The position numbers and the translations under genes are program-made. A stretch of DNA of 64,000 bases, taken from NCBI GenBank assembly GCA_945863605.1, contig CAMAZP010000001.1, forward strand, positions 88,272 through 152,271, read 5' to 3'. The notes below the pieces were generated by a model. That model was not told where the DNA came from and ran no database searches. It saw only the letters and a program-made list of their open reading frames with translations. Shown piece after piece: positions 57,903 through 60,979 of the stretch. This stretch comes from Chitinophaga pinensis. GTDB lineage: Bacteria; Bacteroidota; Bacteroidia; Flavobacteriales_D; Crocinitomicaceae. Position 1 is the stretch's first letter. Each line of letters starts with the position of its first letter.

Positions 57903-58783
57903 ATGGAAATACCAAAATTTGACGAAACGTTTCTTCCAATCCTTGAAATACTAAAAAGGGACAAATTTTGAAGTCAAGAGAACTTATAGAAGAAGTTAAG
58001 AAACAATTCTATTCCGAATTAAGTGATGATCAACTTAAACAAAGAACAAAATCTGGTGATTTACTTATTGACAATAGAATTGCTTGGGGTAAATCTTATC
58101 TAAAAAAAGGAGGTTATATTTCATTCCCAGAGAGAGGTCATGTTCAAATTACTGAAAAAGGATTGAATCACACTACGAGTTTGACAGTAAGAGATTTAGA
58201 AAATGATAGTTCGCTATTCGAATTTTACAAACAGGAAAAAGATACAAATTCAATTATTACTAATTCTAAAGTTGACATTTCTTATCCACAAGACTTAATC
58301 GATGAAGGATTTAATCGTATAGAGAGTGATGTTAAGAATGAACTTTTGCTTAAGCTAAAAAGTATCGACCCTTATTTTTTCGAAAAAGTTGTACTTAGAC
58401 TTTTAAATAAAATGGGGTACGGAGAATTTATTGAAACATCAAAATCCAATGATGGAGGTATCGATGGAATAATAAATGAAGATAAACTTGGACTCGATAA
58501 AATCTATATGCAGGCGAAAAGATTTAACGAGGGAAAAGTAAGAGAAAAAGATATTAGAAATTTCATTGGAGCAATGAGTGGAGACATCAACAAAGGAGTT
58601 TTTGTAACAACATCTGAATTTGACGATAAAGCAATTGAAAAAGCTCGTTCAGCACACCACAAAATTGTTTGTATTGATGGACAAAAGTTAGTATCGCTAA
58701 TGCATGAATTTAATGTTGGAATTCAAGTTAAAACTACTTATGAAATCAAACAAATTGATGAAGATTTTTTTGATGATCAATAG
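57903..58783 (+). pseudogene. mrr: Mrr-type restriction endonuclease with N-terminal frameshift (intact ORF 57968-58783 from TTG)
   Basis: MEIPKFDETFLPILEILKRDKF* (57903-57971) then, in -1 frame, KSRELIEEVKKQFYSEL...LIDNRIAWGKSYLKKGGYISFPERGHVQITEKG; Mrr_cat SNDGGIDGIINEDKLGLDKIYMQAKRF. Confidence 0.75.
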
Positions 58784-59202: not shown

Positions 59203-59263
59203 TAATAAGAGCCAAAATCGTATTATTTTATATAACTTTGGCTTTTATTAATACAAATTTAAA
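59203..59263 (+). repeat. 61-bp flanking repeat, upstream copy (imperfect palindrome)
   Basis: taataagagccaaaatcgtattattttatataactttggcttttattaatacaaatttaaa. Confidence 0.92.
59233..59240 (+). promoter_or_regulatory. Bacteroidota -7-like promoter box TAACTTTG inside upstream repeat
   Basis: Exact TAnnTTTG match 33 nt before the ATG at 59273; no convincing -33 element seen. Confidence 0.45.
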
Positions 59264-59272
59264 CTTCTGTTT

Positions 59273-60688
59273 ATGCCATTAATTGGTCGAGAAAAAGAGA
59301 TTAAAATCTTAGAAAACGCTCTACATAGCTCGCGTTCAGAGCTGATTGTTGTGTATGGAAGACGACGCGTTGGAAAAACCTTTTTGATTCGAGAAACTTG
59401 TAAAAAACACATTCAATTTGAATTTGTGGGAATGTACAAAGCTTCAACGAGGGAACAACTTAAACTTTTTAAGCAAACGTTGTTTAATTTTTCTCAGCAA
59501 AAAGTGAAAACACCTTCAAATTGGTTAGAAGCTTTTCAGCAATTGAAAGACTATTGCGACACACTGATTGGCAATAAAAAGAAAGTACTTTTCATTGATG
59601 AATTTCCTTGGTTGGATAACAATAAATCCAGTTTTTTAAAAGCTTTCGATAATTTTTGGAATAGTTATGTTACCAAGCGTGAAGATTTAGTGGTTGTTGT
59701 CTGTGGTTCCGCTGCTGCTTACATGATTAATAAAATCATCAGGAGTAAAGGCGGACTTCACAATCGTTTGACAGATAAAATTCGGGTGGAACCTTTTAAT
59801 CTTAAAGAAACGGAATTGCTACTCAAGAAAAATCGTGTGAAATTGACGCATTACGATATTTTGAACTTGTATATGGCGATGGGCGGAATTCCTCATTATT
59901 TAGATAAAGTAAACGTTGGAGAAAGTGCTACCCAAGCAATCGATCGTTTGTGTTTTGAAAAAGATGGATTCCTCAGAGACGAGTTTAAAAATGTCTTTGC
60001 ATCCTTGTTTGATCAAGTGGATAACCACGAAGCAATCATTCGGATTCTTGCAGATGTACGCAAAGGATTACCGAGAAATGAAATTATGAAAAAAGGAAAT
60101 TTTCCTTCTGGAGGAAACCTTACACGCACTTTACATGAATTAGAAGAATCAGGATTTATCGAGCAATATGCACCTTATAAAGGAAATAATAATGCTTTGT
60201 ATCGCTTGAAAGATGAATATTGCAGTTTCTACATCAAATACATCGAAAAAAATAAACCTTCAGAGAAAGGAGTTTGGAATAAACTTCAAACGCAAGCAAG
60301 TTATAACTCTTGGGCAGGATTTACCTTTGAAACTATTTGTCTTAAACACATCGAACAAATTAAAGAAGGATTAAAAATTGCTGGAATTTATACAACTACA
60401 GGAAATTGGTTGGAGAAAAATAGTGAAAATGGAGCTCAAATTGATTTGCTAATCGACCGGGATGATAACGTTATAAATCTCTGTGAAATTAAGTATTACG
60501 ACGGCCTATTTACGCTGAATAAAAAGTTTGCTTTTGATTTGATGAATAAAGTAGCAGTTTTTAAAAATTCAACTCAAACTAAAAAGAGTATTTTTCTTAC
60601 GCTGATTACGATTCATGGCATCACAGCTAACGAATATAGCCGTCAATTGATTCAAAATAACCTTACTTTAGAACATTTATTTTTGTAA
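59273..60688 (+). CDS. AAA ATPase fused to DUF234-type PD-(D/E)XK nuclease-like domain
   Basis: Walker A VVYGRRRVGKTFLI, Walker B KVLFIDEFPWL, CGSAAAYM, wHTH region, C-terminal GAQIDLLIDRDDNVINLCEIKYYDG. Confidence 0.92.
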   Translation: MPLIGREKEIKILENALHSSRSELIVVYGRRRVGKTFLIRETCKKHIQFEFVGMYKASTREQLKLFKQTLFNFSQQKVKTPSNWLEAFQQLKDYCDTLIGNKKKVLFIDEFPWLDNNKSSFLKAFDNFWNSYVTKREDLVVVVCGSAAAYMINKIIRSKGGLHNRLTDKIRVEPFNLKETELLLKKNRVKLTHYDILNLYMAMGGIPHYLDKVNVGESATQAIDRLCFEKDGFLRDEFKNVFASLFDQVDNHEAIIRILADVRKGLPRNEIMKKGNFPSGGNLTRTLHELEESGFIEQYAPYKGNNNALYRLKDEYCSFYIKYIEKNKPSEKGVWNKLQTQASYNSWAGFTFETICLKHIEQIKEGLKIAGIYTTTGNWLEKNSENGAQIDLLIDRDDNVINLCEIKYYDGLFTLNKKFAFDLMNKVAVFKNSTQTKKSIFLTLITIHGITANEYSRQLIQNNLTLEHLFL

Positions 60689-60749
60689 TAATAAGAGCCA
60701 AAACTACTATTATTTAATATATTTTGGCTTTTATTAATACAAACTTAAA
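60689..60749 (+). repeat. 61-bp flanking repeat, downstream copy
   Basis: taataagagccaaaactactattatttaatatattttggcttttattaatacaaacttaaa, starts immediately after the stop codon. Confidence 0.92.
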
Positions 60750-60979
60750 ATCAATTTTTAAATTCTAATTCCAATTAAATCGTAGTGTTTTTAAGGTTTT
60801 CATCTACATTTTTTTGAATGCGTGATTGAATAGCTAAAGTGTCTGATTTCACAAACTCTTTTCTTGTGATATATTCATACAAATTGAGGTGGCGATTAGG
60901 TAAAATACTTGAAAAGATACAAAAAATGAAAATTAGTTATTCCGATTCTCACCACAACAAGTTTCCTTAATTTTACAGC

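Follow-up and report, generated by a model that had tools for sequence, protein, structure and literature searches.

Within the window, i.e., the whole 64,000-nucleotide stretch of DNA analyzed here, a single open reading frame of 471 amino acids (59273-60688) lies between two 61-bp direct repeats (59203-59263 and 60689-60749). In agreement with the first-pass annotation, the upstream repeat ends near the start codon, with a gap of 9 nt to the ATG, the first base of the downstream repeat is the one next after the stop codon, and the two copies share 15 identical nucleotides on the left and 27 nucleotides with one mismatch on the right. The "divergent 19-nt centre" described there, however, is an artefact of ungapped comparison; when gaps are allowed, the centres align (TATTATTT[T/A]ATATA). 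Local alignment of the two repeats yields a score of 85, compared to 36 for the best among 200 shuffles, and the pattern GCCAAA-N10..30-TTTGGC is found at two places in the window, both of which are the repeats (2 of 100 shuffles reach two). Searches of the repeat's own genome (3.09 Mb), a check proposed in the first-pass annotation, returned exactly two matches to the full arm pattern, the next-best BLAST matches being short fragments of ~15-33 nt. With two copies in the genome, both of them specific to the ATPase gene, a dispersed genome-wide repeat is ruled out. The features of the unit are as follows:

59203..59263, plus strand: 5' palindromic unit, with half-sites GCCAAA (59211-59216) and TTTGGC (59237-59242) and N20 between them; the anatomy of the family agrees
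59233..59240, plus strand: candidate -7 promoter element TAACTTTG, matching TAnnTTTG and overlapping the right half-site of the 5' palindrome; promoter activity putative
59273..60688, plus strand: PDC-S27 ATPase-wHTH-PD-(D/E)XK protein, 471 aa (PADLOC PDLC04984; Pfam ATPase_2 and DUF234; AlphaFold pLDDT 91.6)
59357..59380, plus strand: Walker A GRRRVGKT, residues 29-36; motif in the sequence, key residues invariant in homologs
60017..60208, plus strand: predicted winged-helix domain, ~residues 249-312, from model secondary structure and Foldseek matches to Orc1/Cdc6 and NLR/Apaf-1; the part of the protein with the lowest dN/dS
60107..60148, plus strand: recognition helix with N-cap, residues 279-292 (SGGNLTRTLHELEE); residues 279, 282 and 285 covary with arm bases
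60389..60685, plus strand: PD-(D/E)XK nuclease domain, triad D391/E405/K407, invariant in alignments A1 and A2; fold elements in the model
60689..60749, plus strand: 3' palindromic unit, with half-sites GCCAAA (60697-60702) and TTTGGC (60723-60728) and N20 between them; without the TAnnTTTG spacing

The encoded protein and its genomic setting

PDC-S27 is a PADLOC candidate single-gene defence system of the "guilt-by-embedding" class, in which an ATPase is fused to a PD-(D/E)XK domain, with 3503 copies in archaea and 4562 copies in bacteria (PMC12988326). The PADLOC profile PDLC04984 (PDC-S27) matches the window protein over its full length (residues 2-470 of 471, E 2.4e-190), and the combination of ATPase and PD-(D/E)XK is the one described for this candidate (PMC12988326). 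Judged from its sequence, the protein is a full-length PDC-S27 member in which the ATPase and PD-(D/E)XK motifs are intact; its role in defence is that of a candidate, and nuclease activity is likewise putative. The Walker A/B and C-terminal PD-(D/E)XK signatures that had been read from the ORF are present, i.e., GRRRVGKT, FIDE (Walker B, residues 107-110), and D391/E405/K407, and their key residues are invariant in an alignment of 25 homologs.

The best Foldseek matches of the AlphaFold model were a Pyrococcus Walker ATPase, Orc2/Orc1-Cdc6 (one of them bound to origin DNA), and NLR/Apaf-1 proteins, with 1w5t and 2qby among the matches of the AAA+ plus winged-helix part. The model is indicative of an ORC/STAND-like fold, in which an AAA+/STAND ATPase is followed by a winged helix. 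A sequence search of solved structures with the window protein gave no match at E<=0.01, and domain searches detected no recombinase or transposase domain, Pfam reporting ATPase_2 and DUF234 only. Two other paralogs in the same genome are 44% and 40% identical to the window protein.

In a sister species (locus L031), the corresponding unit, with both repeats, is located between mfd and purC. The dN/dS of the window protein compared to this sister copy is 0.06 overall, and is lowest, at 0.023, in the winged helix; on this comparison of coding sequences, selection is purifying overall and strongest in the winged helix. In the window, mfd and the unit are separated by Mrr, and the unit is followed only by a 3' remnant of purC and then by dapF. 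The Mrr-like type IV restriction gene (57968-58783; PADLOC mREase_IV, E 9e-52) is absent from L031, where the unit comes directly after mfd. The remnant between the unit and dapF (~60775-60890, minus strand) is a truncated purC-like 3' end, the gene being whole in L031, and was joined to dapF by rearrangement. It should be noted that dS between the window and L031 is ~1.0 for mfd and reaches ~1.4 for the ATPase gene, i.e., near saturation, so that unselected flanks would not align anyway; therefore, the window/L031 edge was dropped as an insertion boundary. The congeners have a DapF of 48-65% identity, and in 29 of them no match to mfd, Mrr or the ATPase occurs in the 1.5 kb upstream of dapF; thus, there is no informative empty site between mfd and dapF in these genomes.

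Palindromes across the family and covariation with the recognition helix

Using a set of 124 homologous loci, 116 of them non-duplicate, we scanned for palindromes with a centre of 14-22 nt at most 110 nt 5' of the start codon; 149 ORFs, taken from these loci and from the window, served as controls. A 5' palindrome with a score of at least 11 was found for 76 of the 116 homologs versus 1 of the 149 control ORFs, and with a score of at least 9 for 97/116 versus 7/149; a clear 5' palindrome is missing in about a fifth of the homologs (19/116) even at the loosest cut-off. The first-pass annotation had also considered that relatives might carry the gene without the paired repeats; what they carry is the gene with paired, locus-specific palindromes. 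The half-sites are mostly TTTGGC-like, with TTCCGC, TTTGGAAC, TAAATCC or TAAAGTAGT in other lineages, and are often followed by a TATAA-like outer block. The spacing from GCCAAA to TTTGGC is N19 or N20 in 96 of 102 pairs, which fits a protein on double-stranded DNA better than an RNA hairpin. Conserved arms around a variable centre had been taken as a sign of selection on the stem: the sequence of the centre does vary across the family, but its length is nearly fixed, so the spacing, and not the arms alone, appears to be selected.

The 8-bp half-site is shared in 54% of the pairs with more than 70% protein identity versus 3% of the pairs with less than 45% identity, and in none of 22 within-genome paralog pairs. 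The latter count is not significant as evidence of non-interference between paralogs, because unrelated pairs share the 8-bp half-site in only 3-8% of cases.

The bacterial-type palindrome is not present in the region before the ATG of haloarchaeal members (L233-L236, on haloarchaeal plasmids), where a conserved motif, AAGTCATTATCGnnnTAATCATTA, unlike the bacterial palindrome, stands directly before the ATG (~-35 to -1). Haloarchaeal and fusobacterial members were rejected as further cases, the haloarchaeal motif being short and different from the palindrome. In two distant homologs (L030 and L060, identity 24-25%), the ATG is immediately preceded by an unrelated palindrome whose centre is 17 nt long (TTATCGCAATG..CATTGCGATAA; ATTATACTC..GAGTATAAT), so the palindrome habit may extend beyond this PDC-S27 subfamily. 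A homolog of PDC-S27 also occurs in Wolbachia phage WO (L066; likewise L107), where it is flanked by head-tail genes and other genes of the phage; a CCGCGGT-type palindrome precedes its start.

Covariation was calculated for 78 homologs with registered arms, equivalent to ~42 effective sequences, mostly from Bacteroidota. The strongest signals are those between residue 279 and arm positions 2-3 and those that connect residues 282 and 285 with position 6; all three residues sit at the start of helix 281-292, i.e., the recognition helix of the winged helix. Phylogenetic confounding was limited by the use of 38 non-overlapping nearest pairs, with the family-wise error estimated from 2000 permutations. 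Among the 471 columns, the one that best follows changes in arm positions 2-3 in these pairs is residue 279 (7/8 versus 2/30; p 2e-5), and residue 282 likewise ranks first both for position 6 (14/15 versus 6/23; p 5e-5) and for positions 5-7 (18/21 versus 2/17); the family-wise error of the tests for residues 279 and 282 is 0.000-0.003. A few columns outside the helix, e.g., 232, 306, and 64, also pass a family-wise error of 0.05, indicating that some shared ancestry remains in the covariation.

The associations resemble a code: (i) at residue 279, S, T or G goes with TTTGG, D with TTCCG, A with TAAATCC, and H with TAAAGT; (ii) at arm position 6, T282 goes with T, and R or G282 combined with R285 goes with C; (iii) at the same position, D282 (or R282 with D/Q285) goes with G, and K/R282 with N/D/Q285 mostly goes with A, with exceptions. 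For example, among near-identical helices that differ at residue 285, RLTR pairs with GGCC arms, and RLTD or RLTQ with GGCG. Leave-one-out prediction from the helix residues, restricted to relatives with less than 60% identity, scored 0.90 for arm position 3 (mean for random columns, 0.61) and 0.54 for arm position 6 (0.30), and 0.3% of random columns matched the scores of the helix residues. Different paralogs of one genome carry different arms. Since the arm bases covary with residues 279 and 282 of the protein's own wHTH, it is very likely that the window protein binds the palindromes that bracket its own gene.

The two copies, solo palindromes and an empty site

The consensus TAnnTTTG is that of the Bacteroidota -7 promoter element. 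Upstream palindromes contain it in the direction of the gene in 52 of 98 cases versus 8 of 98 in reverse, mostly at a fixed offset at which the right half-site begins with the TTTG of the element; the respective counts for downstream palindromes are 4/45 and 10/45. Because of this directionality, the 5' copy resembles an operator placed on the promoter of the gene itself, as assigned by consensus, and probably serves in autorepression; since it overlaps the putative promoter, the 5' copy is probably not transcribed.

A cognate 3' copy, defined by the gene's own 6-bp half-sites at a spacing of 17-22, was found for 35 of 98 genes, compared to 5 of 1524 when half-sites of other genes were used, and the 3' copies often begin 3-14 nt from the stop codon. 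The similarity of the upstream and downstream flanks is at least 35 in 31 of 109 genes (1.4% of the non-matching, off-diagonal pairs; 0 after shuffling), and the gene's own downstream flank is the best match among the 109 in 20 cases, with ~1 expected. Nearly two thirds of the homologs have no recognisable 3' copy, and the 3' site is thus not essential everywhere. In the sister species (L031:2905-2935), the 5' palindrome is preceded by TATTTTTGTAATAATGAGAG, a copy of the last codons and stop of the ATPase gene, so that this palindrome resembles the 3' palindrome of a tandem copy that was lost.

Units with 84-89% nucleotide identity occur in unrelated neighbourhoods (L054/L055, L052/L057, L142/L146 and L033/L034), and the outer palindrome edges, or points close to them, mark the limits of homology in these pairs. 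The same element at different sites with sharp ends, as expected of a transposon, is therefore seen for other PDC-S27 units and not for that of the window. The first-pass annotation had proposed a search for further palindromes, either flanking ATPase homologs or solo, and both kinds were found: in 60 scanned genomes, ATPase genes are the location of palindromes with T-rich centres, apart from some solo copies. Palindromes of full anatomy also stand alone, away from any ATPase gene, and L213 has two adjacent solos of different specificity. The ATPase itself is patchy, 3 of the 36 sampled congeners having a match at E<=1e-20. High palindrome counts in the ATPase-less congeners G019, G477, G021, and G010 were discarded as GC-richer and coding-like, with unrelated centres.

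Locus L218 is orthologous on both sides (83-92% nucleotide identity) to L129, L131, and L132, and contains one palindrome and no ATPase. In its centre, this solo palindrome is almost identical to the outermost of the 5' palindromes of L129; the loci L129-L132 carry three palindromes, two 5' and one 3'. No target-site duplication was seen at L218, where one palindrome is kept. Judged by these alignments, L218 may represent what is expected to remain once flanking direct repeats have recombined; alternatively, a unit may have been inserted at a palindrome already present. A 230-aa gene that follows the 3' palindrome in L132, and is also found in L218, is missing in L129 and L131, a second presence/absence change beside the palindrome. 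An empty site with one repeat, suggested for the interval between mfd and dapF, thus exists at a related locus of the family and not at the suggested one. The broader suggestion of a mobilisable or recombinationally gained cassette is partly supported, by repeats that belong to the gene, by the 84-89% identical units in unrelated neighbourhoods, and by the empty site; the part of it that assigned the repeats a role as regulatory hairpins is not supported.

Mechanism, alternatives and known systems

We consider it likely that the PDC-S27 unit is a nuclease with private palindromic sites, in which the protein reads the sites and represses itself, and the direct repeats permit loss or gain of the gene. 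This reading builds on the computed bracketing, family conservation, spacing, promoter overlap and direction, covariation, cassette-bounded homology, and solo empty site, from which we infer binding as a dimer or oligomer, repression, a trigger, nuclease activity, and a role in defence. The winged helix would read both half-sites, ~25-26 bp apart, most simply as a dimer. Given that the 5' site covers the -7 promoter element, binding should switch off transcription of the gene, and the nuclease would be kept low; release of the promoter would presumably follow infection or titration of the protein. The 3' site, as a second copy of the binding site, could either retain the protein in cis or strengthen repression through looping. 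As direct repeats, the two sites would allow loss (or gain) of the gene between them, with a single palindrome left.

The 3' copies start at the stop codon, and some have stems longer and more symmetric than those of the 5' copies, which would suit repeats that act as RNA hairpins, namely as a terminator downstream of the gene and as an attenuator or insulating terminator upstream of it. However, the loop is ~18-20 nt, the T-rich stretch after GGC falls inside the stem, and TAnnTTTG inside the 5' copy places it mostly upstream of the transcription start; an intrinsic terminator (short-loop stem and U run) or a known RNA was rejected, as no terminator-like site was called at either palindrome and there was no Rfam match. 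Hairpins would also leave the nearly fixed spacing and the covariation with the protein's own helix unexplained, which makes them highly improbable; the covariation suggests that the supposed regulatory hairpins are double-stranded operators read by the winged helix. It is also improbable that shared ancestry alone accounts for the covariation and co-occurrence, with the palindromes bound by an unrelated host factor and diverging alongside the genes. Close relatives do share arms, as the 54% versus 3% contrast in half-site sharing indicates, but the best of 471 columns is a recognition-helix residue in each of three tests on independent nearest pairs, the RLTR and RLTD/RLTQ helices differ in their arms accordingly, and so do paralogs within one genome.

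A selfish mobile unit, with the palindromes as element ends at which the ATPase-nuclease would bring about its own excision and its insertion, perhaps into solo palindromes, is possible but rather unlikely. The cassette-like units in unrelated neighbourhoods, the full-anatomy solos, the one-palindrome site at L218, the patchy presence, and the invariant nuclease triad are all consistent with it. Conversely, there are no near-identical multicopy bursts (the window unit is single-copy, with paralogs of 40-44% identity), no recombinase or transposase domain was detected, ordinary recombination between direct repeats explains the empty site equally, and the promoter overlap and its direction are unexpected for mere element ends. 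An extended version, equally doubtful, would have PDC-S27 as an autonomous "initiator-like" selfish cassette, i.e., an ORC-like ATPase-nuclease that binds and acts at its own palindromes and moves between or into solos, with rapidly diversified, non-interfering specificities and an anti-phage effect as a by-product or addiction.

A literature search, with preprints and most subscription papers outside its scope, found no earlier description of PDC-S27 with palindromes on its flanks, with an operator at its promoter or with a recognition code, and the text on PDC-S27 in PMC12988326 contains neither "palindrom" nor "inverted repeat". PDC-S27 is among the commonest uncharacterised defence candidates and lacks a mechanism; the private site and the readable helix provide a concrete hypothesis, that of a self-regulating nuclease with its own operator. 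Solo palindromes would serve as a marker for past gain or loss of PDC-S27 units, and, should the 3' copy be a target of the protein as well, this would be a new kind of single-gene cassette.

RAYT/REP modules likewise consist of a single nuclease-type gene flanked by imperfect palindromes; however, the window protein has no Y1/HUH transposase domain (Pfam ATPase and DUF234 only), and its palindrome is not dispersed, with two copies in 3.1 Mb. IS200/IS605 elements resemble the window unit in that the gene has an end capable of hairpin formation on either side, both in one orientation, whereas the window unit has no HUH TnpA or TnpB and is distinguished by double-stranded half-sites, fixed spacing, winged-helix coupling, and a promoter in one end. 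Restriction-modification control proteins repress a defence promoter at short palindromic sites. RptR, a DNA-binding repressor of defence islands, does the same (PMC12255303). Compared to both, the putative effector of the PDC-S27 unit would be its own repressor, and the site is also found downstream of the gene. The nearest functional analogy, without a claim of membership, is the archaeal replicator-initiator pairs, in which an orc1/cdc6 gene adjoins its own origin recognition boxes (PMC4010727). As in these pairs, the PDC-S27 unit combines an AAA+ and winged-helix protein with cognate inverted repeats beside its gene, site and protein diverge together, and several specificities coexist in one genome; the window unit differs in its C-terminal nuclease, in the position of the site on its own promoter, and in the repetition of the site after the stop codon.
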